Positions 18,257 to 53,743 of a stretch of DNA of 64,000 nt are shown piece by piece. Position 1 is the stretch's first letter. Every line of letters begins with the position of its first letter. Source of the stretch: Bacteroidota bacterium (lineage in GTDB: Bacteria; Bacteroidota; Bacteroidia; Cytophagales; Cyclobacteriaceae); assembly GCA_016178785.1 (NCBI GenBank), contig JACOSO010000031.1:124001-188000 (forward strand), read 5' to 3'. Below the pieces are notes generated by a model. It saw only the letters and a program-made list of their open reading frames with translations. It did no database searches and was not told the origin of the DNA. Both the position numbers and the translations under genes were made by a program.

Positions 18257-20437
18257 TCAGATAACCGTGGCTTGGTTTGAAGCAGGTTCATTCTGCTTTT
18301 CGAGTAAACCAACCAATTTCTTTTCGTTTTTGTTTCTTGCCTTTATTACGGCACTCAGGTCTGCAGGGAAAAGAGCCTGAAATATGGAACCATTACTATC
18401 TGAGTGAACAAGGCTTATTGATCCACCCACTTTATCAAGAGCCGTCTTGACCAGGTAAAGTCCTACGCCACCAATTTCTGACTGTTCAGAACCTCGTACA
18501 AACATTTTAAAGATATCTTCTGTCTCGTATTTGTGAATCCCTATGCCGTTGTCTTCCACGGTAACTTTCACCAGATTCGCTTCTCTGATCAATTTTATTC
18601 TGACAAAGGGGGCAATTCGGTTCGAAGATGCCCTGAATTTGACGGCATTATCGATAAGGTTTTCCAAAACCGTGCGTACTAAAAACTCATCTGAAACAAT
18701 ATTACAGTCAGGCTCAATTTCACAAGAGAATGAGAACCGATCAGAAATTCCTTTTCTTTTTTCGAAGGCTATAGTTTCATCGATAATGGTTTTGAAATCA
18801 ATGTCCTCAGGCTTAAGTTCCGAATGAGTAACGTAGTTCACCATTTGCAGCCGCGTAAGGATAACATTAAGCTTGTCGGTGGTAAGGTCGAATTTTTTAA
18901 AATAATCAATTGCCATCGGGTCTTTCAAATCCATCAGAGCGATGTTGCACATTCCTTTTAAGGTTACCAGCGGTCCGCGGATGTCATGAGAGCTTTTGTA
19001 TATAAAGTAATCCAATTCATCATTTACCTTCTGCAATGCGCTATTAGAAAATACCAGGTCACCGGTGCGCTCATTTACCTTGTCCTCCAGTTCCTTATTG
19101 TAGCTTTCTAAACGCTCATTTTGCTCCTGAATCAGGTTCTTTGCAGAAGAGAGTTCACGGTTTATTTTCTGTTGCCTTTTGCTGAAATAAAATAACATTC
19201 CAGCAAGGGCAACGATTAATGTTGTGATGACGGTTACGAAAAAGAACTGTCTCTGTTGCCGAACGATAATTTCCTTTTGAAGAGCCAGGACTTGGTCTTT
19301 TTCTGCAATGGCTTTTAGGTTCGCGCGCTCTTCATAGGCGGTTCGAACTTGTGAGAGATTGCTTATCACCTTTTCACTTAGGATGCTATCCTTTATAGCA
19401 ATAAATTTTGATTGATAGAATGCAATGTTTTTATAGTCATTGGTCTCGTTATAGAGCTTCGAAAACATTTCGTACACAGATTGCAACAAAAATCTGTATC
19501 CTTTCTGTTTAGAAATGGATTCAGTTTCGTTGAGATATTTTAAAACCATGGAATAATCTTTTCGAACGAAATAAATACGTGCAAAATTCAACTTGCTTTC
19601 CGCCTGAAACCTGAAGCTTCCTATACGTTTGGCTACCTCATAGGATTTTTCGAAGTGCTTTAAAGCCTCATTGTACGATTTACTTTGTAAAAGAGAAACA
19701 CCTAAACAAAATTCTCCTTCAAGGATGATTTGATCTGAACATTTTCCATCGCATTCAGACAGTCCCTCATTTATATACTTTCTTGCCTCCTTATAGTCTC
19801 CAATAGCATTAAGACAGAAACCAATATTTATTAGCAATCGATCAAGATCATAATGGTCGTTAACCTGTTTCTTTAGTTCCAAAGATTTTGTGTAGTAATC
19901 AAGCGATCTGTAGAAATCATGAAGTTTATAATATATGACTCCAATATTATTAAGAGCAATACTGATCTCTTTTTTATTTCCCTCTGCCTCTCGAATCACT
20001 AGTGACTCAAAGTTACATTTCAACGCCTTATCATATTCCGCTTTCAAAGTATACGAAGCAGCTAAAGAATTGAGCAATAGTTTTGTTTCTGGTATGTTAT
20101 TAAGCCGCTTAGCGATCCCCAATACAATCTGAGCAGTTTGAATGGCCTCATCAATACGCTCTAGTCTCCTTAATTCACCTGCCTTAATTCTTCCACCTTT
20201 AATTATTCTTGCGCTATCGCCCAAACTTAATGCTAGGTCGAAGGCCTGCCCAGCATATACTAAAGAAAGCGAATCGTTCACATCAGAATACTCATAAGCC
20301 AGGCCAAAGAGTGCTTCGTATTTATTGATCCCGTCAGATGACAGAAGAACATTTTTTAATGAATCTAACTTCTGGGCATTCAATCTAAAAGCCAAAACAA
20401 AGACGGAGATGAATAGAAAAGATGTTTTAATAAGCAC
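18257..20437 (-). CDS. TPR-containing sensor histidine kinase
   Basis: 726 residues from a GTG start. A signal peptide (FLFISVFVLAFRLNAQ) is followed by about six periplasmic TPR units (residues 30-370, for example ALNNIGVIYYKLHDFYRSLDYY), a membrane segment (FFFVTVITTLIVALAGMLFYF, near 400) and a coiled coil. The kinase region has H-box SSHDIRGPL with His near 484, N-box NLIDNAVKF, G1 VEDNGIGI and GGVGLYLVK. It should autophosphorylate in response to an envelope signal; no partner regulator is adjacent. The 20984-22528 gene is a close paralogue of its sensor half. It is divergent from two tiny exported peptides. Confidence 0.85.
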   Translation of the reverse strand: MLIKTSFLFISVFVLAFRLNAQKLDSLKNVLLSSDGINKYEALFGLAYEYSDVNDSLSLVYAGQAFDLALSLGDSARIIKGGRIKAGELRRLERIDEAIQTAQIVLGIAKRLNNIPETKLLLNSLAASYTLKAEYDKALKCNFESLVIREAEGNKKEISIALNNIGVIYYKLHDFYRSLDYYTKSLELKKQVNDHYDLDRLLINIGFCLNAIGDYKEARKYINEGLSECDGKCSDQIILEGEFCLGVSLLQSKSYNEALKHFEKSYEVAKRIGSFRFQAESKLNFARIYFVRKDYSMVLKYLNETESISKQKGYRFLLQSVYEMFSKLYNETNDYKNIAFYQSKFIAIKDSILSEKVISNLSQVRTAYEERANLKAIAEKDQVLALQKEIIVRQQRQFFFVTVITTLIVALAGMLFYFSKRQQKINRELSSAKNLIQEQNERLESYNKELEDKVNERTGDLVFSNSALQKVNDELDYFIYKSSHDIRGPLVTLKGMCNIALMDLKDPMAIDYFKKFDLTTDKLNVILTRLQMVNYVTHSELKPEDIDFKTIIDETIAFEKRKGISDRFSFSCEIEPDCNIVSDEFLVRTVLENLIDNAVKFRASSNRIAPFVRIKLIREANLVKVTVEDNGIGIHKYETEDIFKMFVRGSEQSEIGGVGLYLVKTALDKVGGSISLVHSDSNGSIFQALFPADLSAVIKARNKNEKKLVGLLEKQNEPASNQATVI

Positions 20438-20458
20438 GTAGTTTAAAAAATCAAATAC

Positions 20459-20488
20459 TTGGAAATGTGCGACAAAGTACTATTTTCG
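20459..20488 (+). promoter_or_regulatory. Candidate promoter for the small-peptide genes
   Basis: TTG (20459-20461), a 19-bp spacer, then TATTTTCG (20481-20488) resembles the Bacteroidetes TTTG-N19-TAnnTTTG form with a C for T in the -7 box. It lies 40 bp before the first peptide start, in the divergent gap with the TPR kinase. Confidence 0.4.
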
Positions 20489-20528
20489 CGGCACAATTTA
20501 AAAAATCAAACCATAATCCAAAACCAAC

Positions 20529-20663
20529 ATGAAAAAACTAGTTTACATTTTCGTTCTATTGGCATCAATCGCCATGTCAGTTGCCTCTTGCACAGAAGAA
20601 GTAGTTAAGCCAAAAGATGGAGCTGCCGATGGCTCAAGTACTTCAGTACCAAAAGGATCATAA
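20529..20663 (+). CDS. Tiny lipoprotein, 44 residues
   Basis: It begins MKKLVYIFVLLASIAMSVASC, a classic lipoprotein signal with Cys at residue 21. Only 23 residues follow (TEEVVKPKDG, then a Ser/Gly-rich end SSTSVPKGS). The mature product would be a lipid-anchored acidic peptide. It is followed 31 bp later by another small exported peptide and is flanked by two paralogous TPR kinase genes. No family is recognised. The signal peptide makes coding likely despite the size. Confidence 0.7.
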   Translation: MKKLVYIFVLLASIAMSVASCTEEVVKPKDGAADGSSTSVPKGS

Positions 20664-20694
20664 TTCATCTTAATCACATTAAAAATCAAAAGCT

Positions 20695-20859
20695 ATGAAA
20701 ACTAAAGTATTGAGTCTGATCGCAATCTCTGCAATTCTGGCCTTGTCTTTCGCTTTCACTTCTTCTTCCAAAAGCGTTAAGAAAGCAACCAAAGAAATCA
20801 AGCAGAAAAATCAAGACAACGAGCCCCTTGGCGGCCTTGTTTCAGAAGACAAGTTCTGA
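20695..20859 (+). CDS. Tiny exported peptide, 54 residues
   Basis: It begins MKTKVLSLIAISAILALSFAF, a signal peptide or membrane anchor, then a Lys-rich stretch (SKSVKKATKEIKQKNQDN) and a terminal EPLGGLVSEDKF. It is 31 bp after the tiny lipoprotein, so the two are likely one transcript. The basic middle and defined C-terminus suggest a secreted peptide, perhaps a ligand for a neighbouring TPR sensor, but that link is only positional. No known family is recognised. Confidence 0.65.
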   Translation: MKTKVLSLIAISAILALSFAFTSSSKSVKKATKEIKQKNQDNEPLGGLVSEDKF

Positions 20860-20983
20860 TTGATTTCTGCTAAACTTTGCCATCGGCAAGTCATTCCTTC
20901 CAAATGACTTGCTGATGGCTTGGTATTATCCAATTTCTCAATGAGGTGTCCGCCACACTGTCTGCAGAACACCCTTTCAATAC

Positions 20984-22528
20984 TTATTCGCCCTCTTTCG
21001 TCTTCTTGAATAAGGGCGAGAGTTGGTCAATATTGTTTGCGACTTTCTGGATATACTCTTTTGCTCTTCCATCAGTAAGCTCAAGTCGAGCTGCATGGCA
21101 CAGGCCGCTAACACTGGACAAAATTATTAGGCTTTCTTTTTCAACTTTAAGAATCTTCGATTGCTGTAATTCATAGGCGGTCGTTAAAGAGCGATTATTT
21201 TCCCGCAGTTCTTCTGTCCTCTCTTTTACTTTTTGGTCCAGTTTAATATTGATCAAAAGTTTGTCGCGATAAATTTTATACAACATTATCGCTACTATCG
21301 TCAACAGCAATGCGATGGCCGCCATTAAAGCCAATTGTATTTTTTGCTTTTGAATGAGCTCTTCCCTTAAAGACAACATTTGGTTTTTTTCAGCAATGGT
21401 TTTGAGATTCTCACGCTCCTCAAAGTCGGCATGAAGTTGAGCGAGGTTACTGGTCACCTTTTCATTGAAGACACTGTCTTTATAAGCAATATATTTTGAC
21501 AGATATAGCGAAGCACTTTTATAATCCTTAATTTCATTAAACAACTTTGAAAATACTTCATAAGTATCGATCAATAAAAACTTGTATCCTTTTTGCAGAG
21601 ATATATTTTCGGCTTCATTCAAGTATCTTATTGCCATCTCAAAATCTTTCTTAATTAAATGTATCCTGGCAAAGTACAAAATATTCTCTACCTGAAATCT
21701 AAAATTGTCGATTCTCTTAGCTATTTGATATGATATTTTTAGGTGCTTCAATGACTCTGAAAATAACTTCGCATCATAAAAGGTGTCTCCCAAAGCTATC
21801 TCACCTTCAAGGATAATCTGATCAGTGCATTTTCCATCGCATGAGTTTAATCCTTCAGTAATATATTTTATGGCTTCTGCATAGTTACCCATTTCATTAA
21901 CACACAATCCAATATTGATTAATAATCGATCAAGACCATACTTGTCATTTGACTCCCTTTTGAGTTCCAAACATCTTTTGAAGTATTTGATTGAACTGGG
22001 AATATCATTGAGCTTATAATAACAAACGCCAATGTTATTCAATATAATACTAATCTCTTTCTTGTTTCCTCCTTTCTCCCTAATAACTAACGACTCAAAT
22101 TGATACCTTAATGCTTGGTCATATTCGCCCCGCAAAATATGTGATGTACCTAAAGAATTTAGCAACGATTTTATTTCAGTTGTATCCTTATGACGCCTTG
22201 CTATTCTTAATATGTACAATGCCATCACTATAGCATCGTCAATGTGTTCAAGCCTTCTCAGTTCAGCAGATTTGATTCTCCCCCCTCGAATTATTCGCGA
22301 ACTATCTCTGAGTTTCAGCGCAAGATCAAATGCCTGCGTAGCATAAGCCAATGAAAGGGAATCGTTCACCTCTGAATATTCGTAGGCCAACCAATAAAGA
22401 GTCTCATACTTGTTTACTCCTTCGGAGGATTGGAGAATCTTCTTCAGCGAATCTATTTTCTGAGCATGTAATTCGCATGATAGCGTGAAGGACAAAAAAA
22501 GGAGAGAAAATCGTAATGATAAGCCCAT
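20984..22528 (-). CDS. TPR sensor paralogue with lost kinase domain
   Basis: 514 residues. Signal peptide, TPR array, membrane segment (LALMAAIALLLTIVAIMLYKI) and coiled coil closely parallel the 18257-20437 kinase, including shared SLSLxYAxQAFDLAL and CDGKCxDQIILEGE stretches. After the coiled coil the H-box and the whole ATPase domain are missing. What remains (SVSGLCHAARLELTDGRAKEYIQKVANNIDQL) aligns with the residues after HDIRGPL in the paralogue. It is therefore a decayed kinase or a sensor-only protein. It is divergent from the soluble kinase gene at 22598. Confidence 0.8.
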   Translation of the reverse strand: MGLSLRFSLLFLSFTLSCELHAQKIDSLKKILQSSEGVNKYETLYWLAYEYSEVNDSLSLAYATQAFDLALKLRDSSRIIRGGRIKSAELRRLEHIDDAIVMALYILRIARRHKDTTEIKSLLNSLGTSHILRGEYDQALRYQFESLVIREKGGNKKEISIILNNIGVCYYKLNDIPSSIKYFKRCLELKRESNDKYGLDRLLINIGLCVNEMGNYAEAIKYITEGLNSCDGKCTDQIILEGEIALGDTFYDAKLFSESLKHLKISYQIAKRIDNFRFQVENILYFARIHLIKKDFEMAIRYLNEAENISLQKGYKFLLIDTYEVFSKLFNEIKDYKSASLYLSKYIAYKDSVFNEKVTSNLAQLHADFEERENLKTIAEKNQMLSLREELIQKQKIQLALMAAIALLLTIVAIMLYKIYRDKLLINIKLDQKVKERTEELRENNRSLTTAYELQQSKILKVEKESLIILSSVSGLCHAARLELTDGRAKEYIQKVANNIDQLSPLFKKTKEGE

Positions 22529-22597
22529 ACATTATTTGGTTTGAGTTTAATGAGGCCAGGTCACTTTTGCTCCAGGAAACAGACTTACCTTTGCTAA

Positions 22598-23275
22598 ATG
22601 ATGCCCAAAGGTTTAATTGTTACCACCAAACAAAAGTACGAAACCGAAATTGCCAAACGTACCATGGAAGCCTGCGAGCAAATTTCCATCGAAATGGGCG
22701 CTGAGGTACATGACGACCTGATCCAGAAGCTCACGGTTTTCACTTTAAACATCGACAGATTAGAGCGATCAATCGGTAACCCTCCGGAGGCCGAATCATT
22801 GATTATGAAGATGCGTAACGATTTTCAGGAAATGGTGTCTTCCGTGAGGAGTATCTCGCGCAAATTGATGCCTGTAAGTATGGAGGGTGAAAAATTTACC
22901 CGAAGTATCGAATTACTCTGCGAAAATTTAGAGCTGCCGAGCCAGGGTCTGATTCATTTTAGTAGCTCGGGGCACGAAATTGATCTATCGGTTGTAACAA
23001 GAAGATACCTGTACAGAATCTTACAAGAGCTAATACATAATGCCTTCAAGAACTCTTCCGCCTGGCACGTGTGGGTAAAGCTGATATGGACTGATGATCA
23101 ACTATTGCTAGAGGTAGAAGACGATGGCACCGCTTTCTCAAACATGCAAGAACAGATTACCCGGTTGGAGAGCAAATACAATACACTAAAAATGCGGTCG
23201 CAGGCAATTAATGCCGTGCTGTCTTATCATCAGGGCAAAAAGGGTTTGCTGGCAAGGGTGAAGTATAAGATTTAA
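22598..23275 (+). CDS. Soluble HisKA_3-type histidine kinase
   Basis: 225 residues with no sensor or membrane segment. The H-box is AEVHDDLIQKLTVF with His38, typical of the NarX/DegS-like HisKA_3 family. The ATPase part has LIHNAFKNSSAWHV (N-box) and VEDDGTAF (a shortened G1), then GKKGLLARVKYKI. It would need another protein, possibly the TPR-only neighbour encoded divergently 69 bp away, to sense a signal. It converges with a NarL/LuxR response regulator across a palindrome, so the two make a plausible two-component pair. Confidence 0.82.
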   Translation: MMPKGLIVTTKQKYETEIAKRTMEACEQISIEMGAEVHDDLIQKLTVFTLNIDRLERSIGNPPEAESLIMKMRNDFQEMVSSVRSISRKLMPVSMEGEKFTRSIELLCENLELPSQGLIHFSSSGHEIDLSVVTRRYLYRILQELIHNAFKNSSAWHVWVKLIWTDDQLLLEVEDDGTAFSNMQEQITRLESKYNTLKMRSQAINAVLSYHQGKKGLLARVKYKI

Positions 23276-23342
23276 TCCCTCACCCCCTTCCCCTCTCCCT
23301 GGGGAGAGGGGTGTCCGAGGAACGAGGACGGGGTGAGGGATT
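23274..23342. repeat. Nested perfect palindrome filling a convergent intergenic gap
   Basis: The outer arms AATCCCTCACCCC (23274-23286) and GGGGTGAGGGATT (23330-23342) pair over 13 bp. An inner 9-bp stem CCCCTCTCC/GGAGAGGGG (23290-23298 and 23303-23311) has a CTGG loop. The outer arms overlap the stop codons of both flanking genes. It could act as a bidirectional terminator or be a REP-like mobile palindrome. Confidence 0.8.
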
Positions 23343-23973
23343 AAAGTATTCCATTCCTATACGCATAGGCTAGCAGCCCTGCTGTATTATTTACCTGCAC
23401 TTTTTTGATCAACCTTATCCGGTAAGTCTCTGTTGTGGATTCGGTCATTTTCAGTAGGGAAGCAGCTTCTTTTGTTGTAAGCCCCTTGGCAATAGCTTTC
23501 AGTAATTCTTTTTCCTGAAAAGTAAGTTGTACAGGTGGCACATCGCCAAACTGATGTGCATACTGACGGATTACATGAAGTACCTTATCCGGAAAATAAC
23601 TTCCCGAGTCTGACACCGCCCTGATAGCTTTAAGTATTTCGCGGTAGCCATCTAATTTGAAAATGACGCTGTTGACTCCGGCCTTTAACAAGTTGATGAT
23701 AAGCTCCTGCCCTTCCAGCCCCGTGAGCACAATTACTTTGGGTTCGTTGGGTAACTGCTTTAACGCAGGGAGTAACTCCAGCCCGTTGGTATTTGCCATA
23801 CGAAAATCTAAAAAAACAATGTCAAACAAATGGTCAGAAAGTGCATTTTTGAATTCCCAGGCATTGCCAGCCTCTACAATTTGTTTTACAAAGTCTTCTT
23901 TCTCTAACAGCGCGCGCAGCCCTTCGCGCACCAGGGCCTCATCATCAACCAGTAAGAAGCTAAGCTTATTCAT
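23341..23973 (-). CDS. NarL/LuxR family response regulator
   Basis: 210 residues. The receiver domain has FLLVDDEALVREGLRALLE with the acidic pocket at Asp10-Asp11, the phospho-acceptor Asp56 in DIVFLDFRMANTNG, Thr in VIVLTG, and a C-terminal LuxR helix-turn-helix (LTFQEKELLKAIAKGLTTKEAASLLKMTESTTETYR). It is convergent with a HisKA_3 kinase, its likely partner. It is divergent from the gene at 24099, and the gap between them holds the first copy of the three-copy repeat, so it is a natural candidate to regulate the 24-30 kb island. That regulation is inference. Confidence 0.88.
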   Translation of the reverse strand: MNKLSFLLVDDEALVREGLRALLEKEDFVKQIVEAGNAWEFKNALSDHLFDIVFLDFRMANTNGLELLPALKQLPNEPKVIVLTGLEGQELIINLLKAGVNSVIFKLDGYREILKAIRAVSDSGSYFPDKVLHVIRQYAHQFGDVPPVQLTFQEKELLKAIAKGLTTKEAASLLKMTESTTETYRIRLIKKVQVNNTAGLLAYAYRNGIL

Positions 23974-23989
23974 CGTTCAAAGTTAAGCA

Positions 23990-24076
23990 CGTTTTCCGTA
24001 CACCTCGTTGTCTGGTTTTCCAGATGAACTGATACTACGTGTTGACCAAACCCGGAAGAGGTTGCAATTACGCGGC
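23990..24076 (+). repeat. Three-copy element, copy 1
   Basis: It contains GTTTTCC (23991-23997) and, 24 bp later, TTGTCTGGTTTTCCAGATGA, and ends in a GGCC-rich tail before the 24099 start. It is nearly identical to copy 3 over 19 bp. The frame that reads LSGFPDELIL is open here too but lacks an ATG. Confidence 0.7.
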
Positions 24077-24098
24077 CTAAATCAAAATTTTATTAATT

Positions 24099-24602
24099 AT
24101 GGCACAAGAAAACAGAGTCTCGATCAAAATTCAACCCGCAGACCTTAAGAAAGTATCTGACGCAATCAAAGTGGCAGCGGACACCCTCAAACCTTATCTC
24201 GTTGCGCTCACACCTGTGGAACGCCAGCAACTGCCCAAAATGAGCGATGGCAACATTCCCTTTGTTCAGAAAAGTCTGGAATATGCACAAGCAAATGCCT
24301 CTTTTGTGCCCGCCTACTTAGACGTAACAGAACTAAAAACAGACTTGGATGCTGTTGAGTCTTTACTGCAACTGTTCCGCCCGCTTGAGCAGTTGTACCA
24401 AAATCTGGATGATACCATGACTCTTTCTGGCAGTGAGGCTTATGTGGCCGCCTTAGCTTTTTACAACAGCGTAAAGGTTGCAGCTAAAATGAAAGTGCCC
24501 GGGGCAAAGGCCATAGCCGAAGACCTTAGCCTTCGCTTCGCAGGGCAGGGTAAAAAACTTACGAAGCCAACAACTAATAACAACCACGCAACGGTTAAAT
24601 AA
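24099..24602 (+). CDS. Hypothetical helical cytoplasmic protein
   Basis: 167 residues, no signal peptide. It begins AQENRVSIKIQPADLKKVSDAIK and is predicted all-helical (LDAVESLLQLFRPLEQLYQNLDD, AYVAALAFYNSVKVAAKMKVPGAKAIAEDL) with a low-complexity tail (TKPTTNNNHATVK). I do not recognise the family. It carries copy 1 of the three-copy element in its upstream region and ends in a strong hairpin, so it is its own transcription unit at the edge of the bacteriocin-like island. Confidence 0.7.
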   Translation: MAQENRVSIKIQPADLKKVSDAIKVAADTLKPYLVALTPVERQQLPKMSDGNIPFVQKSLEYAQANASFVPAYLDVTELKTDLDAVESLLQLFRPLEQLYQNLDDTMTLSGSEAYVAALAFYNSVKVAAKMKVPGAKAIAEDLSLRFAGQGKKLTKPTTNNNHATVK

Positions 24603-24647
24603 AAAGTCGAACTGGTTCACGTTTTGACTTGGTCACGCCTCTGATAA

Positions 24648-24680
24648 AGTCGCCCGACCACTCAAAGTGGTCAGGCGACT
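24648..24680. terminator. Strong hairpin, terminator-like
   Basis: AGTCGCC-C-GACCACT, a CAA loop, then AGTGGTC-A-GGCGACT gives two 7-bp stems around a single C-A mismatch. It is 46 bp after the 24602 stop. The T-run is weak (AACTTT), so a processing or protein-binding hairpin is also possible. Confidence 0.55.
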
Positions 24681-24946
24681 AACTTTCAAAAGAGACTAAA
24701 AGGTTCACTGACTTGCTCACACCGCCTAAACGGTAAAATGTTTGGGGCTTTTGTCAAACCAATTCTGCAGTAGCATGAACGAGTTGATGGCAAAGTCTCA
24801 AACTTTTCTTTTTAGCTGAAGTAGTTGTCAAAATAACCGAGCCAGTTTGTCAATGAGCTTAATTAGTTTGTTCAGGAAGTACTGCTGTCCTACTTTAAGA
24901 AGTACTCATTTTCCCGAAAACATCCTCACACTTGTTCGATCAGGCA
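24681..24946. other. Intergenic region without recognised gene
   Basis: About 265 bp with no convincing reading frame. Short TTTGTCAA motifs recur (for example GGCTTTTGTCAAACC and CAGTTTGTCAATGAGC). I see nothing else that can be named. Confidence 0.4.
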
Positions 24947-25042
24947 GGTTTTCCTAATAATGGTGTTGTCTGTTTTTCCTGATGGTATAGCGATAACGCT
25001 TGGCAGCAAAAATGTAATGGTTAATATTTGGCCACGCGGCAT
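24947..25042 (+). repeat. Three-copy element, copy 2
   Basis: GTTTTCC (24948-24954) is followed 25 bp later by TGTTGTCTGTTTTTCCTGATGG, then CGCTTGGCAGCAA and AATATTTGGCCACGCGGC. An ATG frame 24960-25067 (35 residues, MVLSVFPDGIAITLGSKNVM...) reads through it in the same frame as the other copies. TTG-N20-AATATTTG inside it resembles a Bacteroidetes promoter, so it may be regulatory DNA rather than a gene. Confidence 0.65.
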
Positions 25043-25070
25043 AAAAATGGGTTTTCAAATTATTTAACAG

Positions 25071-25217
25071 ATGAATCGACTAAAAATTTTCCTGCTATCA
25101 ATAGCAGCTTCACTTTCCCACATCGTCTCCCGCTTCGGGATGTCTCTCATACTCACCTTCAACCTAAGTCACCCATGCGTATCGTCCCCTAAACGGGAGA
25201 CGATACTTGACGACTAA
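25071..25217 (+). pseudogene. Truncated copy of the small membrane-protein gene at 25228
   Basis: The first 45 bp after the ATG, plus about 9 bp before it, nearly match the intact gene 157 bp downstream: MNRLKIFLLSIAAS versus MNRLNIFLLSIAAS. After that the frame diverges into an unrelated 34-residue tail (LSHIVSRFGMSL...ETILDD) rich in inverted repeats, and the membrane segments are lost. It is best read as a partial duplication interrupted or replaced by hairpin-rich DNA. Production of a 48-residue peptide cannot be excluded. Confidence 0.65.
25122..25204. repeat. Inverted repeat in the tail of the truncated copy
   Basis: ATCGTCTCCCG (25122-25132) is perfectly complementary to CGGGAGACGAT (25194-25204). 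The right half also folds locally, with GTATCGTC pairing with GACGATAC. It lies between the truncated and intact gene copies. Confidence 0.7.
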
Positions 25218-25227
25218 TTATTAACAG

Positions 25228-25482
25228 ATGAATCGACTAAACATTTTCCTACTATCGATAGCAGCTTCAGCAGGTGCATCAATTTTCATAACCAGTGTGA
25301 TTTCCCTCGTTCAAATAAGTGATGTTGCAAAGATAAAAACCGCTCTCCATGTTTTTTATAAAGCATACCTTAATCATTACGGTGCGTTATTGTTGTGCCT
25401 GTTTTTAGTTGCTTTCATTCTCTCACTGATCACTTTTAACTATTTCCTTATCAGGAAAGCACGATACCTAAAAGAGTACTGA
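25228..25482 (+). CDS. Small two-helix membrane protein
   Basis: 84 residues. Two hydrophobic segments, NIFLLSIAASAGASIFITSVISLV (about 5-28) and ALLLCLFLVAFILSLITFNYF (about 53-73), flank a short helical loop and are followed by a basic end (IRKARYLKEY). It is upstream of the bacteriocin-type peptides on the same strand and could be an accessory or immunity-like protein. The sequence matches no family I know, so that is positional inference only. Its 5' end is duplicated just upstream. Confidence 0.65.
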   Translation: MNRLNIFLLSIAASAGASIFITSVISLVQISDVAKIKTALHVFYKAYLNHYGALLLCLFLVAFILSLITFNYFLIRKARYLKEY

Positions 25483-25525
25483 TTAGGCGATCTCAGACGC
25501 AAACTGATACTTTTCCATTCTTCCT

Positions 25526-25672
25526 ATGGTTTCCCTTACTGAAGTGCTGTCTGGTTTTCCAGATGATTTGGTGATTGAGCTTGGTGGCAATCAAGCCAAA
25601 GATGAATATTTGACCAAGGTCTCCGGCCGGAACCGAAAAGTAAATTTTAACTTTAAAAAACAAAAATTATGA
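25526..25672 (+). CDS. Three-copy element, copy 3: 48-residue ORF coupled to peptide 1
   Basis: An ATG frame reads MVSLTEVLSGFPDDLVIELGG then a basic tail ending FNFKKQKL. Its TGA overlaps the peptide 1 ATG (ATGA), which allows translational coupling. Copies 1 and 2 keep the same frame with LS(G/V)FPD and aligned hydrophobic positions, while many third bases differ, which hints at coding. Alternatively the conserved DNA is a regulatory site: paired GTTTTCC motifs at 25529 (one mismatch) and 25554 are 25 bp apart, and TTG-N21-AATATTTG resembles a promoter for peptide 1. Which reading is right cannot be settled here. Confidence 0.4.
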   Translation: MVSLTEVLSGFPDDLVIELGGNQAKDEYLTKVSGRNRKVNFNFKKQKL

Positions 25673-25842
25673 AAACTTTGGAATTGGAAAATTGGGGAAT
25701 AAGTGAGTTAAATCTCTCTGAGGCCCTCTCGATCGATGGTGGAGACTCTAATGGAACTATGGCAGGAGGAAGCATTAGTCTTGATTGGACAAAACCTGTC
25801 ATCAATTTCGTTGCAGGTTTCATTGCTGGGGTTTTTAGTTAA
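25669..25842 (+). CDS. Double-glycine leader peptide 1 (bacteriocin-type precursor)
   Basis: 57 residues. The leader KTLELENWGISELNLSEALSIDGG ends at Gly24-Gly25 and has the hydrophobic/acidic spacing (EL..L..A..I.GG) of C39-processed leaders in Bacteroidota. The predicted 32-residue core starts DSNGTMAGGS and ends VAGFIAGVFS. It contains GxxxG motifs at Gly29-Gly33 and Gly50-Gly54, a hallmark of helix packing in class IIb two-peptide bacteriocins. Peptide 2 follows 34 bp later, then the exporter genes. Antibacterial activity is inferred from this architecture. Confidence 0.8.
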   Translation: MKTLELENWGISELNLSEALSIDGGDSNGTMAGGSISLDWTKPVINFVAGFIAGVFS

Positions 25843-25876
25843 TCAGAAATTTTACAACAATTTAAAAACAAAATAT

Positions 25877-26059
25877 ATGAACATAGAACAATTAAGTTTA
25901 CAATCTATCTCAAAAGAAGAGATGGTTTTAATCAATGGTGGCACGGAGGAGACCCTTATCGACACTTCATCAACGGCATACCAGTTGGGCAATACACTTG
26001 GCCAAGCTGTTAGAAACGCTGCTGCAGCTTGGGGTCTTTACACATTATTTTTCTTATAA
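25877..26059 (+). CDS. Double-glycine leader peptide 2 (bacteriocin-type precursor)
   Basis: 60 residues from the ATG at 25877. The same frame is open further upstream to 25736, but that extension overlaps peptide 1 and lacks sense. The leader NIEQLSLQSISKEEMVLINGG ends at Gly21-Gly22. The 38-residue core (TEETLIDTSSTAY...) contains GxxxG at Gly38-Gly42 (GNTLG), an Ala-rich helix (RNAAAAWG) and a hydrophobic end LYTLFFL. Paired with peptide 1, this gives two leader peptides, each with GxxxG, in front of one C39 exporter. Confidence 0.82.
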   Translation: MNIEQLSLQSISKEEMVLINGGTEETLIDTSSTAYQLGNTLGQAVRNAAAAWGLYTLFFL

Positions 26060-26063
26060 AATA

Positions 26064-26171
26064 AGAAGGGAGCTGATTAAAACCCTTGACTGCTAGTCGC
26101 AATTTAAATTCGTAAATAGACTTTTGTTTGCAATCTGTGTTAAGGGTATAGTTGGCTCCTTCTGTGTTTTT
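26064..26171 (+). terminator. Long-range hairpin, possible attenuator after the peptide genes
   Basis: AGAAGGGAGC (26064-26073) pairs with GGCTCCTTCT (26154-26163) with one bulged G. An inner ACCCTT/AAGGGT pair supports the fold, and GTGTTTTT follows. It lies between peptide 2 and the CPBP gene, so partial termination here would keep peptide mRNA above exporter mRNA. Confidence 0.4.
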
Positions 26172-26189
26172 ACTTAAAAAAATAAATAA

Positions 26190-26921
26190 ATGTTTATCAC
26201 CAGTTTTTATGGTTATTTAAAAAAACCAACTCCCAATTTAAGTATTGATAAGGATCGGAATTTTAAACAAAGAATACTCTGTATTGCCAATTGTTATGCA
26301 ACATATTTACTCTTGGCTCTTTCCTCCTTTTTTATTCTCAAAATCATCGATACGGCAATTCTTAAATATTTTTATGACTTTTCAATTCTATCTCAATTTG
26401 AAATCAATAATAAAAAAACGTTGTCAAAGTTTGGGGATTACGCCATTATTATCATTCCATTTGTCGGCCCCTTTATTGAAGAAATTCTTTTCAGGTTGCC
26501 ACTAAATTTTAGACAAACAAGCATAGGTCTCGCTGTAGCATTGATTACTTACCGCTTCACTGGTAAGCATCTATTTTCGTTTGATCCCTATGAAATATAT
26601 AGTTACATAAGGATCGGAATTGCGCTTACGGTTTTTATGTCAGTTAGCTTTTTCTTTCCATTACCGTGGCTCGAAAAAATCAAGGAAAGTTACTTTAAGT
26701 GGTTTTTTTATCTCTCTGCGGTTTTGTTTGCTCTGGTACACATCACGAATTTAGCCCCATATAACCATTCAGCCCTATTCTTTTATCCCCTTTATACACT
26801 TCCGCAATTCTTCATGGGTTTGGTCATTGGCTACCTTAGAGTAAGGCAAGGTTTTTTTTCAGGTTGGGTGCTCCATGCTTTGATTAATCTACCGTCAGCT
26901 TTAGTTTACTTTTTCAAATAA
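26190..26921 (+). CDS. CPBP family intramembrane protease-like protein, candidate immunity
   Basis: 243 residues with about six membrane segments. CPBP motifs are complete: EEILFR (EExxxR, Glu97-Glu98 to Arg102), FALVH (His184) and HALIN (His229-Asn233). CPBP (Abi) proteins are membrane proteases, and several class II bacteriocin clusters use them as self-immunity proteins. Its place between the double-glycine peptides and their exporter fits that role. Leader processing is better assigned to the C39 domain of the ABC protein. Immunity is inferred from position and family precedent. Confidence 0.78.
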   Translation: MFITSFYGYLKKPTPNLSIDKDRNFKQRILCIANCYATYLLLALSSFFILKIIDTAILKYFYDFSILSQFEINNKKTLSKFGDYAIIIIPFVGPFIEEILFRLPLNFRQTSIGLAVALITYRFTGKHLFSFDPYEIYSYIRIGIALTVFMSVSFFFPLPWLEKIKESYFKWFFYLSAVLFALVHITNLAPYNHSALFFYPLYTLPQFFMGLVIGYLRVRQGFFSGWVLHALINLPSALVYFFK

Positions 26922-26936
26922 ACATTCAGAATACCA

Positions 26937-28106
26937 GTGGATCCCCAACAAGAAAAAGAGTTGATGCCTTCAGTGCTTCTTGAGATAACTTCTCAGAACT
27001 ACCTCTCTCAAACTTCAAAGAAATCCATTTTAATTTACTTGGCATTTTGTCTTGCTACTTCTTGTGCACTTGTTTCTTTTTTCTTTGTCAGTATTTCAAT
27101 CAGCAAGCAAGCTACTGCACTCATCCGCCCTTCTACGGAAATAAGTACCGTTCGCTCTCTGGTCAATGGCCGCATCAAAGAATCTTTCATTAAGGAGAAT
27201 CAATTCGTAAAAAAAGGTGATCTGCTTTGCATGATTGAATCTGAGCCACTGATCGAAAAGGAAAAATTTCTGACCGTAAAAAAGCAGGATATTGAAAATT
27301 TCATAAGTGACCTGCGTCAACTTACGTCAACCCCGAAAGCATCCGGCATTACCACTGCCCTTTACCGGCAGGCATACCGCAGCCACCAGCAAAAATTGGC
27401 CGAGGCCGATACGCACTTAAGCAAAACAAAAACCGACTACAACCGCAATCTGAAGCTGCACAACGAAAGGGTGATTGCCGATGTAGAGTTTGAAAATTTT
27501 AAGTTTGAATTTGACAAAGCCCAAAACGAGCTTGAGCTTTTAAAACAAAACCAGTTAAGCCAGTGGCAGAATGATTTAAGGGCGTATGAAAGAGAACTTC
27601 AAGACATTGAAAGCCAGCTTGCCCAATTGCGGAAAGAAAAAGAGAACCTGGTCATCAAGGCGCCTGTTACTGGCAACATTCAAAACCTGGCCGGCATTTA
27701 TCAAGGGAGTGCTGTATTTACTAACCAGGATATCGCACAAATTTCACCCGCTACAAACCTGATTGTAGAGGCTTATATCAACCCTAACGATATTGGGTTT
27801 ATTCGTTCAGGAATGTCTGCACGCTTTCAAGTAGATGCCTTCAACTATAACCAGTGGGGTCTTGCTTCGGGCAGGGTTATGGAAATATCGAATGACGTTC
27901 ACTTCATCAATGAGAAGCCCGTGTTTAAAGTAAAATGTCAGCTTGACAAAGAGTACTTGCAATTGAAGAACGGGTACAAGGGTTATTTGAAAAAAGGGAT
28001 GACATTACAGGCCCGCTTTATGGTGACCGAGCGCACATTATGGCAACTGCTGTATGACAAAGCAGATGATTGGTTGAACCCCAATACTTTCATTACTCAG
28101 AATTAA
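26937..28106 (+). CDS. HlyD-family membrane fusion/adaptor protein of the peptide exporter
   Basis: 389 residues from a GTG start, 15 bp after the CPBP gene; an ATG nine codons in is an alternative. One N-terminal membrane anchor (LIYLAFCLATSCALVSFFFV, about 31-50) is followed by a lipoyl-like half (STVRSLVNGRIKESFIKENQFVKKGDLL), a long coiled-coil hairpin (about 100-235) and the closing lipoyl half (VIKAPVTGNIQNLAG) plus beta-barrel region. It would span the periplasm and link the ABC exporter to an outer-membrane channel such as TolC, which is not encoded here. Confidence 0.88.
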   Translation: MDPQQEKELMPSVLLEITSQNYLSQTSKKSILIYLAFCLATSCALVSFFFVSISISKQATALIRPSTEISTVRSLVNGRIKESFIKENQFVKKGDLLCMIESEPLIEKEKFLTVKKQDIENFISDLRQLTSTPKASGITTALYRQAYRSHQQKLAEADTHLSKTKTDYNRNLKLHNERVIADVEFENFKFEFDKAQNELELLKQNQLSQWQNDLRAYERELQDIESQLAQLRKEKENLVIKAPVTGNIQNLAGIYQGSAVFTNQDIAQISPATNLIVEAYINPNDIGFIRSGMSARFQVDAFNYNQWGLASGRVMEISNDVHFINEKPVFKVKCQLDKEYLQLKNGYKGYLKKGMTLQARFMVTERTLWQLLYDKADDWLNPNTFITQN

Positions 28107-28124
28107 AATTTCATCCTCCTTCTC

Positions 28125-30293
28125 ATGAAAAAAGCTGTCAAGATAAAGCAACGAGATATTACAGATTGTGGCGCTGCGTGTCTTGCTTCTGTAGCTGCAT
28201 TTCATAGTTTAAAGCTCCCCGTTTCAAGAATAAGGCAACTGGCATCAACGGATAAAAAAGGTACAAATGTGCTTGGGCTTTTGGAAGCCGCCAATAAACT
28301 TGGCTTCGATGCAAAAGGTGTTCGCGGTGAGTTTGACAGTCTTTTCAAAATACCCAAACCAACCATAGCGCACGTCATCGTAAAAAAAGTACTTCATCAC
28401 TATGTGGTGATTTACGATGCCACACCAAAGTACATTGAAGTGATGGATCCTGGCGATGGACAAATGCACCGCTACACTCACGATGAATTCAAAGAAATGT
28501 GGACGGGCGTTTTGATGATTCTATGGCCAAGTCAAAGCTTTGAAATAAGCAATCAAAAAATCTCTGTCGGTGCACGGTTTTGGCAACTTATTGCCCCGCA
28601 TCGCTCAATAATGACTCAGGCAATTTTTGGTGCGCTGATTTACACCATCATCGGGCTCTCCACCTCTATTTATGTGCAAAAAATAATCGATTACGTGCTG
28701 ATTGATGGCAACAGGAATTTGTTGAACCTCATGAGCGTAGTTATGATTGCACTTTTGGCAGTTCAATTATTTATTGGTGCATCGAAGAGCATATTCACTT
28801 TGCGCACTGGCCAGTTGATCGATGCACAGCTTATTCTTGGCTACTATAAACATTTGCTCAAACTCCCACAGCAGTTTTTTGACACTATGCGTGTGGGCGA
28901 GATCATCTCACGCATAAACGATGCGGTAAAAATCCGTGCCTTTGTCAATGACGTGATCATTAACATAGCGGTAAACATTTTCATCATTGCATTGGCCTTT
29001 GCATTGATGTTTACTTATTACTGGAAGCTGGCATTGGTGATCCTGCTCATTGTTCCTTTTTACGGTTTAATTTATTTTATCACCAATCGACTGAACAAAA
29101 AAGTAGAGAGAAGGCTCATGGAGAATTCTGCCGAACTGGAATCTCAATTAGTAGAATCACTGAACTCAGTCCATACCATTAAAAGTTTTGGTTTGGAAAG
29201 TTTTACTAATCTAAAAACAGAAGTTCGCTTTATCACTCTCTTAAAGACCGTTTACAAGTCAGGCCTCAACAATATTTTCACGGGAAATTCATCTGAATTT
29301 TTCTCTCGGTTATTCACCATTATTTTGTTGTGGGTAGGCGCTGGTTTTGTGCTCGACAATCAAATCACCCCTGGAGAGCTTCTTTCTTTCTATGCGCTCA
29401 TCGCTTATTTCACAGGGCCCGTGAGCAGCTTGATTGGCATGAACAAGATTATCCAAAATGCCATGATCGCTGCCGACCGTTTATTCGAGATCATGGATTT
29501 GGAACGTGAGAAAGATGAAAATAAAGTAAAACTTACTGCAGAAATGATCGGTGACATTTCTTTCAGAGATGTTCATTTTCGCTATGGCAGCAGAGTGACT
29601 GTTTTTGAAAGCCTAAATCTTCAAATCCAAAAAGGAAAAGTAACGGCACTTGTTGGAGAGAGCGGTTCGGGAAAATCAACCTTGATGGCGATGCTGCAGA
29701 ATTTGTACCCACTTCAGAGCGGAAATATTTCCATTGGCAATTATGATTTAAAGTATATCGAAAATGATTCATTGAGGTCATTGATTGGCGTGGTGCCTCA
29801 AAAAATTGATTTGTTCGCTGGCAACGTGATCGAAAATATTGCAGTAGGTGATTATCAGCCTGACATGAAAAAGATCATTGCAATTTGCACATCGCTAGGC
29901 ATCATGGACTTTATTGAAAAACTTCCAAACAATTTCAATACTTACCTCGGAGAAAATGGAGCGACACTTTCTGGCGGGCAAAAACAGCGAATAGCCATAG
30001 CGAGAGCATTGTACAAAGGCCCTGAGATTCTAATCCTCGATGAAGCGACATCTTCATTAGATTCAGCCTCCGAGCAGTATGTGCAGCGTATGATCGATAT
30101 TTTAAAATCTCAACAGAAAACGATTATCATCATAGCTCATAGAATGAGCACCATTTTTAATGCAGACAAAATCATTGTGCTTGACAAAGGAAAGGTTGTC
30201 GAAGAAGGTAGGCACGCCAATTTAATGAGCAATCGAAGCTGTTACTACGAACTTTGGAAGCAGCAATTTCCATTGGTTTTGGAAGTTGCTTGA
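28125..30293 (+). CDS. Peptidase-containing ABC exporter (C39, PCAT type)
   Basis: 722 residues. The N-terminal C39 peptidase has catalytic Cys15 in QRDITDCGAACLASV with Gln9, His92 in VLHHYVVIY and Asp108 in VMDPGDG. Six membrane helices follow (about 160-430). The ATPase then has Walker A VGESGSGKST (about 512), LSGGQKQRIAIARAL and ILILDEATSSLD. Such proteins cleave after the double glycine and export the core peptide. It follows the HlyD gene by 18 bp and ends 1 bp from bioB, tail to tail. The two double-glycine peptides upstream are the evident substrates. Confidence 0.93.
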   Translation: MKKAVKIKQRDITDCGAACLASVAAFHSLKLPVSRIRQLASTDKKGTNVLGLLEAANKLGFDAKGVRGEFDSLFKIPKPTIAHVIVKKVLHHYVVIYDATPKYIEVMDPGDGQMHRYTHDEFKEMWTGVLMILWPSQSFEISNQKISVGARFWQLIAPHRSIMTQAIFGALIYTIIGLSTSIYVQKIIDYVLIDGNRNLLNLMSVVMIALLAVQLFIGASKSIFTLRTGQLIDAQLILGYYKHLLKLPQQFFDTMRVGEIISRINDAVKIRAFVNDVIINIAVNIFIIALAFALMFTYYWKLALVILLIVPFYGLIYFITNRLNKKVERRLMENSAELESQLVESLNSVHTIKSFGLESFTNLKTEVRFITLLKTVYKSGLNNIFTGNSSEFFSRLFTIILLWVGAGFVLDNQITPGELLSFYALIAYFTGPVSSLIGMNKIIQNAMIAADRLFEIMDLEREKDENKVKLTAEMIGDISFRDVHFRYGSRVTVFESLNLQIQKGKVTALVGESGSGKSTLMAMLQNLYPLQSGNISIGNYDLKYIENDSLRSLIGVVPQKIDLFAGNVIENIAVGDYQPDMKKIIAICTSLGIMDFIEKLPNNFNTYLGENGATLSGGQKQRIAIARALYKGPEILILDEATSSLDSASEQYVQRMIDILKSQQKTIIIIAHRMSTIFNADKIIVLDKGKVVEEGRHANLMSNRSCYYELWKQQFPLVLEVA

Positions 30294-53311: not shown

Positions 53312-53743
53312 TCACGTGTTGTCATCATTTTCAGCAAAACGCTGAAAGGCTTTGCTTCCAAAAGCAAGACCAAGAATATATATCCAGCTGGTGTCTATGA
53401 CAAATTCGGAAAAGCTACCGGCTACCCAGCCCAGCTTAATATAGACAAGCGCGAAGACCAACACGACTATAAGAACAATTATCCGCATGGTCGAGATCAC
53501 ACCTGTACTTTCTTCCAGCAAACTTGGAAAGTAAAATATCAAACCGATGATCAGCACCAAAAAAGAGAGCGCAGGAATGGTGCCATTCGTTACTTTCTCA
53601 AGGTCAGTGATGCTAAGAATAGTGGTTGCTATAAATCCTGCTATCGACAACAGGATTAAAAACGCCCCAAAATACTTTGTCATTTTTGTGTCTTGCCCGC
53701 TGTCGGAAGTGTCTGGTGTTTCTGATTTGCTTGAATTGCTCAT
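53312..53743 (-). CDS. Hypothetical membrane protein, four hydrophobic segments
   Basis: 143 residues. A polar, Ser/Asp-rich N-terminus (SNSSKSETPDTSDSGQDT) precedes four hydrophobic segments: YFGAFLILLSIAGFIATTIL, LSFLVLIIGLIFYFPSLL, IIVLIVVLVFALVYIKLGWV and a weaker last one (WIYILGLAFGSKAF). No family is recognised. It follows the gene at 53754 by 10 bp on the same strand and is probably cotranscribed with it. Confidence 0.65.
   Translation of the reverse strand: MSNSSKSETPDTSDSGQDTKMTKYFGAFLILLSIAGFIATTILSITDLEKVTNGTIPALSFLVLIIGLIFYFPSLLEESTGVISTMRIIVLIVVLVFALVYIKLGWVAGSFSEFVIDTSWIYILGLAFGSKAFQRFAENDDNT

Follow-up and report, generated by a model that had tools for sequence, protein, structure and literature searches.

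The locus considered here lies in a 64,000-nucleotide stretch (the window) of contig JACOSO010000031.1, part of the draft genome of a Cyclobacteriaceae bacterium (4.47 Mb, 96% complete, 100 contigs), and brings together a two-component system, a divergent gene for a 167-aa protein, a small membrane gene and a cassette of double-glycine peptides with their exporter. A preliminary description had noted a repeated element at the heads of three transcription units, and it is indeed present there, at 24009, 24967 and 25548; its core is an 18-bp inverted repeat with two 7-bp halves around TTTT. The features are collected in Table 1. We propose that this element is very probably the operator of the NarL/FixJ-type response regulator encoded at 23341-23973, through which three neighbouring units would be activated.

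Three copies of an inverted repeat at one locus

Searched as TGTCTGGTTTTCCNGATG, the 18-mer matches the window at these three positions, with one mismatch in the second copy; when up to three mismatches are allowed there are four matches in the window against 0.28 expected from shuffling, the fourth being at 53710 with three mismatches. The same search of the host genome returns 26 places, compared with six for the reversed control, and only the three window copies are found at one mismatch or fewer. The other 23 places carry two or three mismatches, and each is enclosed by an open frame that runs 336 nt or more from stop to stop, unlike the window copies, which lie outside such frames. With the consensus of relatives (described below) and up to three mismatches there are 255 places versus 203 in the control, and therefore a large hidden family of copies is absent. 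At one mismatch this consensus recovers the window copies together with three further places, each within an open frame of 648 nt or longer; at two mismatches it finds 33 places, and two of the 24 examined (L158 and L160) are outside open frames and lack the TTG spacing described below. Within these limits, sites outside open frames in the host genome are confined to this locus among the places examined. Scatter across the genome had been named beforehand as the observation that would count against a private regulon shared by the two-component system and the peptide cassette, and no close copy of the 18-mer, at one mismatch or fewer, lies elsewhere in the draft genome. In the region 22500-28500, Rfam gave five matches, each far under the gathering score.

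The element had been described as about 90 bp long, with paired GTTTTCC words as tandem half-sites. All three copies have the 18-mer followed at 15 bp by a TTG, and copies 2 and 3 a good -7 box, but there is no uniform 90-bp repeat. Upstream, copies 1 and 2 carry GTTTTCC exactly, whereas copy 3 reads GTTTCCC; copy 2 in turn has TTTTTCC as its main word, and the suggested two-word pattern therefore matches only copy 1. A search for GTTTTCC-N16-19-GTTTTCC was accordingly uninformative, with one match and one in the reversed control. Rather than a half-site, GTTTTCC is the core of the 18-bp inverted repeat, so that a pair would represent two dimer sites; the tandem spacing does recur in other genomes, at 24-25 bp, where it joins full sites.

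Conservation of the site beside the regulator gene

Among 146 genomes searched, the window's own included, there are 12 clear orthologues of the regulator (46-67% identity) besides that of the window, and in all 12 a site starts 47-128 bp before the regulator start. The window-derived word, allowing four mismatches, locates the upstream site in ten of these loci, and the refined consensus adds the other two (L060 and L070). Orientation is as in the window in ten cases, mixed in L068, which has one of each, and flipped in L071 (genome G084). The sites of relatives read approximately TGTMYGGTTTTCCTGAYA, that is, an inverted repeat TGTCnGG-TTTT-CCnGACA, and the site of G040 is TGTCTGGTTTTCCTGACA. 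The word stays at the equivalent place in other genera, with flanks that are unlike.

A wider search of 390 genomes of the family (E 1e-45) identified 22 regulator homologues in 21 genomes, and an upstream site (score of at least 18, within 135 bp) is present in 18 of the 22, the window's being included in both figures; since 12 of these 18 supplied the scoring matrix, the independent count is 5/9, plus the window. A model trained on sequence alone, from 14 sites in relatives and none in the host genome, places the three copies at ranks 1-3 of 31 reported matches in the window (E 0.018-0.029, filters off). Across the host genome, where 150 of 3680 candidates were scored, they rank 1, 2 and 4 (E 1.25-2.06), the third rank being taken by a match at C80:143455 within an open frame of 801 nt.

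Regulator and site also co-occur. The strict pattern TGTNYGGTTTWCCTGAY has 37 exact matches in 24 of the 390 genomes (reversed control, 7), and is found in 12 of the 20 other regulator carriers but only 12 of 369 non-carriers (Fisher p 1.3e-11, relatedness not corrected); the host genome fails the strict pattern, so carriers number 12/21 when it is counted in. Carriers not used in defining the pattern give 5/8 (p 5e-6, relatedness again uncorrected), while half of the 12 non-carrier matches are inside frames of at least 150 aa. Locus restriction, conservation, co-occurrence and the sites beside peptide cassettes in relatives (below) all argue for the private regulon of the preliminary description.

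Spacing to promoter-like boxes and to second sites

The geometry downstream of the sites was examined in 43 sites scoring at least 18.5, taken from the window and from the fetched loci of carriers. In 12 of them a TTG follows at exactly 15 bp, compared with a mean of 0.83 and a maximum of 5 at other offsets, and nAnnTT[T/C]G, which resembles the Bacteroidota -7 box, follows at exactly 38 bp in nine, compared with a mean of 0.12 and a maximum of 1 once offsets of 37-39 bp are set aside. This spacing was initially noticed by eye among 18 sites, which contribute nine TTG and six boxes; the other 25 contribute three of each. The enrichment at a set distance thus concerns a minority of sites, and the -7 box departs at its first base. 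All three window copies have the TTG, and the -7 box of copy 3 is one base further from its site than that of copy 2. Because the stretches between site and boxes are unlike across most genomes, the spacing itself appears to be under constraint. In Flavobacterium psychrophilum the -7 box TAnnTTTG lies at -12 to -5, according to PMC9723704; with the boxes set at this position the site centre would fall near -60 and the TTG at -35 to -33, and transcription is predicted to start near 24077, 25035 and 25617.

Sites also recur in pairs. For 42 sites scoring at least 20, second sites (score of at least 10, on either strand) were sought over 106 offsets; 19 were found, and 15 of these lie at 24 or 25 bp, making 11 distinct pairs, in seven of which the second site scores at least 17; the weak pairs include those of copies 2 and 3. 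G023 has a pair 50 bp apart. We infer that such a pair is best read as two dimers approximately 2.3 helical turns apart.

Genes of the locus and of related loci

Table 1. Features of the locus, in window coordinates; matches to domain families are given with their E values.
Feature	Position	Strand	Remarks
Operator copy 1 (proposed), TGTCTGGTTTTCCAGATG	24009..24026	+	between response-regulator gene (minus) and 167-aa gene (plus)
Operator copy 2 (proposed), TGTCTGTTTTTCCTGATG	24967..24984	+	one mismatch to the 18-mer
Operator copy 3 (proposed), TGTCTGGTTTTCCAGATG	25548..25565	+	
Weak upstream partner word GTTTTCC, copy 1	23991..23997	+	24 bp from main core; below second-site score
Weak partner site, copy 2	24942..24959	+	25 bp upstream; score 10.7
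Weak partner site, copy 3	25523..25540	+	25 bp upstream; score 10.5
Predicted rightward promoter, copy 1	24042..24044 (TTG, -33)	+	-7 box candidate CAATTACG 24065-24072
Predicted promoter, copy 2	25000..25030	+	TTG 25000-25002; -7 box AATATTTG 25023-25030, 38 bp after site
Predicted promoter, copy 3	25581..25612	+	TTG 25581-25583; -7 box AATATTTG 25605-25612, 39 bp after site
Second conserved element, AAGGTCTCCGGCCGGA	25616..25631	+	directly after copy 3 -7 box, at predicted transcription start
TPR protein	18257-20437		neighbour of the 514-aa TPR protein
TPR protein, 514 aa	20984..22528	-	
Histidine kinase, 225 aa	22598..23275	+	HisKA_3 1.5e-06, HATPase_c 6.3e-07
NarL/FixJ-type response regulator, putative site binder	23341..23973	-	Response_reg 3.5e-21, GerE 2.1e-08
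167-aa protein, divergent from regulator	24099..24602	+	
Small protein (84 aa), probably encoded first after copy 2	25228..25482	+	membrane protein by eye
Double-glycine leader peptide, 57 aa	25669..25842	+	peptide read by eye; weak lactococcin G-beta family match, below cut-off
Second double-glycine leader peptide, 59 aa	25880..26059	+	leader read by eye
Rce1-like (CPBP) membrane protease	26190..26921	+	
HlyD-type adaptor	26937..28106	+	HlyD_3 2.4e-14
C39-peptidase ABC exporter	28125..30293	+	Peptidase_C39 1.4e-31

The regulator combines a receiver with a GerE/LuxR helix-turn-helix, and reaches the NCBIfam cut-off of none among the 25 families listed. Of 21 loci, the window included, 20 encode a kinase homologue beside the regulator or close to it, and none was found near that of G316 (L138); Pfam recognised no sensor domain in the window's kinase. 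Candidate sensors are the TPR proteins: either one is matched in 17 of 20 relatives' regulator loci, although in L064 and L067 only the kinase-like end is. In the window (18257-22528) and in relatives the TPR genes stand around that of the regulator, and one of the proteins has, by eye, a C-terminal kinase-like part. Between kinase and regulator (23271-23345) there is also an inverted repeat, CCCTCACCCC...GGGGTGAGGG, with perfect 16-nt arms, which is possibly a terminator or a dispersed repeat.

A homologue of the 167-aa protein also follows a site in G276; a scan of the genome_contigs database gave two homologues (45-48% identity), with the motif absent upstream of both. The unit after copy 2 had been given a start codon at 25071, which is doubtful because 25064-25112 is a 94% copy (49 bp, 157 bp upstream) of 25221-25269, a stretch that includes the start of the gene at 25228, and because a dispersed repeat lies between the two. 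Besides this repeat, of which the genome has copies at five other places, the sequence between the duplicated stretches holds an inverted repeat. The open reading frame 25071-25217 is probably an artefact of this duplication, and 25228 is the more probable start of the gene that follows copy 2.

In G053, G006 and G042 the regulator is separated by a site from a cassette of double-glycine peptide and C39 exporter, with HlyD not found in the G006 stretch, and in G249 separate sites precede the peptide gene and the HlyD gene. Site and cassette occur together in 5 of 21 loci, window included, several of the loci being on short contigs. Other carriers have solo sites that precede or adjoin genes of different kinds, so the putative regulon would reach beyond peptides: the proposed link to a peptide cassette applies to the window, but in other species sites also precede non-peptide genes. 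Many solo sites lack the TTG spacing, among them perfect words before or near genes for RHS/SpvB-like and helix-turn-helix proteins. Three such cases are at loci L143, L147 and L148. In G244, strong sites without promoter spacing lie 230 and 320 bp before genes for large secreted proteins, one of which matches RHS_repeat above the cut-off and the other SpvB below it; and in G053 another strong site without promoter spacing lies 272 bp before a fragment that is, by eye, alike to the G244 proteins.

The peptides themselves show a likeness between two genera. By eye, the mature parts of the double-glycine peptides at L066:4747-4926 and L141:8517-8711 are identical at 24 of 36 positions, and the ending MPGLK is common to both and to a peptide of G030 (L188). 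Of 390 genomes, 3 have a peptide with a mature part of this kind, the query's own being one of them, and that of G030 adjoins a different NarL-type regulator (31% identity).

A second element at the predicted transcription start of the peptide genes

Another conserved element, AAGGTCTCCGGCCGGA, lies between copy 3 and the first double-glycine peptide gene, 53 nt before the latter. Searched as AAGGTNTCCGGCCGGA it has ten matches in 10 of 390 genomes of the family (reversed control, two), three of which look like chance. It precedes a double-glycine peptide gene in G000, G030, G053, G059, G006 and G385, at 53, 54, 53, 53, 84 and 54 nt respectively, the start chosen in G030 being the second ATG, while in G032 the gene that follows, at 58 nt, seems to encode a lipoprotein. 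In the form AAGGTYTCCGGCCGGA (25616-25631 and loci L190-L195 and L198) it is seen at the predicted start, 53-54 nt before peptide genes in five species and 84 nt in a sixth. The regulator is absent at E 1e-45 from G030, G059, G385 and G032, so this element is not tied to it. An RNA fold of the start-site element is no better than shuffles (z +1.14) and pair changes among seven copies are, by eye, one-sided, so that neither action as RNA nor as DNA is favoured. The exact word AAGGTTTCCGGCCGGA was found in none of 271 genomes from the order, a pattern that excludes the window's variant and a draw that held no other element-bearing genome.

A proposed operator and its alternatives

In proposing a mechanism, we suggest that a dimer of the regulator binds the 18-bp inverted repeat TGTCnGG-TTTT-CCnGACA and that a weaker copy, placed 24-25 bp upstream of it, may accommodate another dimer. 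Positioned approximately 60 bp upstream of the transcription start, the regulator, perhaps activated by a phosphorelay from the neighbouring kinase, would recruit RNA polymerase to a Bacteroidota sigma-A promoter consisting of a TTG near -33 and nAnnTT[T/C]G at -7. Copy 1 would switch on the divergent 167-aa gene, copy 2 the small membrane gene and copy 3 the operon of double-glycine peptides, protease and C39 exporter. Since the regulator gene itself starts only 36-53 bp from copy 1, which is upstream of it, autoregulation is likely.

Several observations weigh against this proposal. The exact TTG spacing is absent from 31 of the 43 carrier sites, among them the perfect words of G244 before RHS/SpvB-like genes, and the -7 box CAATTACG after copy 1 is poor. 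The partner sites in the window are weak, scoring 10.5 and 10.7, with that of copy 1 below the threshold. On the regulator side there is no conserved spacing to a -7 box, so autoregulation is argued from position alone. Four of the 22 homologues have no recognisable upstream site, namely one of two paralogues in G276, that of G393 (54% identity) and those of G279 and G253 (42-43%). The latter two have ETNR where site-bearing regulators have ETYR, in a stretch that we take to be the recognition helix; G393 has ETYR and yet no site, and the difference is therefore suggestive only. Upstream of the G279 and G253 homologues (L151 and L152) there is a common word, GCAGAAAA(C/T)(A/C)GGGC(G/A)TG, which is perhaps a changed operator matching a changed recognition helix.

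Finally, G327 and G340 have strong sites with the TTG spacing and no close regulator, the best being 33-37% identical; all of the non-carrier sites with this spacing (3 of 13) are in these two genomes, so another regulator can use the same word. They provide the reason for supposing that the sites bind some other transcription factor with which the response regulator merely co-occurs, since no regulator above 37% identity is found there at E 1e-25. We consider this distinctly improbable given that the site adjoins the regulator gene in 18 of 22 homologues; the ETNR of the two most divergent site-less homologues points the same way, as a suggestion only. A little less improbable, though still unlikely, is that the sites are operators of this same regulator and serve repression, or activate some units while repressing its own gene. 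With copy 1 so close to the regulator start, and a perfect TAACTTTG box on the regulator strand at -12 to -5 relative to the start codon, binding could act either way on that side. The rightward sites, in contrast, are wholly upstream of the -33 TTG, where activators rather than blockers usually act. NarL, for comparison, activates ogt from sites centred at -44.5, -67.5 and -77.5, according to PMC7419079.

Two further readings concern the nature of the repeat itself. The three window copies have a common frame, S(G/V)FPD followed by hydrophobic residues, which in copy 3 overlaps the peptide gene as ATGA, but a protein-coding repeat is hardly credible: in L062a, L062b, L063, L065, L066 and L069 a stop codon closes the frame directly after the motif or a few codons later, while the DNA word is kept, and on these grounds we rejected coding as a general explanation. 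Dispersal as a mobile repeat, or recent local duplication, is only marginally more plausible. Copies 2 and 3 do have extra letters in common (GCTTGGnnGCAA and AATATTTG), so that one may derive from the other; yet the genome holds no further copy within one mismatch of the 18-mer, and the word occupies the equivalent place in other genera with unlike flanks. A real dispersed repeat is nearby, between 25064 and 25269, but for the element itself this reading was also rejected.

The operator proposal has analogues among known systems. The word itself is unlike the NarL consensus. According to PMC7419079, the 7-2-7 operators of Escherichia coli NarL at ogt likewise have two inverted 7-bp elements per dimer and tandem dimer sites upstream of the promoter, but there the spacer is 2 bp rather than 4 bp and the sites are 33 bp apart rather than 24-25 bp. 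The predicted promoters also differ, with Bacteroidota-like boxes here in place of -35/-10. In boxes and positions they may correspond to the Bacteroidota sigma-A promoter, TAnnTTTG at -7 and TTTG near -33, as given in PMC9723704 and PMC7366714, although the latter reports that Flavobacterium johnsoniae did not show the -33 motif; the differences are the upstream operator at a recurring distance and a -7 box whose first base is often not T.

The gene content of the locus also invites comparison. In the streptococcal ComDE/ComAB and BlpRH/BlpAB systems a two-component regulator controls double-glycine peptides and their C39-ABC exporter through a shared operator before several units; these regulators are of the LytTR type, bind direct repeats, and the exported peptide is the signal. 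The present locus likewise joins a two-component system to double-glycine peptides and a C39 exporter, and differs in having a NarL-type regulator. It is conceivable, if on balance rather unlikely, that the whole forms a comparable circuit: peptides exported by the C39 transporter would be sensed through the TPR proteins and kinase, and the NarL-type regulator, binding paired operators, would close a loop by inducing its own peptides, exporter and, elsewhere, further genes, with the element at 25616-25631 as a second layer of control shared with cassettes that lack the regulator.

Implications

A literature text search gave no match to the words CTGGTTTTCCTGA and TCAGGAAAACCAGA, and two-component control of double-glycine peptides in Bacteroidetes/Bacteroidota matched no title or abstract opening among the matches listed, which does not establish its absence from print. 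The analysis proposes a concrete operator for a response regulator, together with predicted transcription starts and target genes, and so would place secreted peptides of Bacteroidota under a two-component system. In related species the motif may serve for mapping the regulon, and the geometry of the paired sites would allow the activation of sigma-A promoters in Bacteroidota to be studied through a natural activator.

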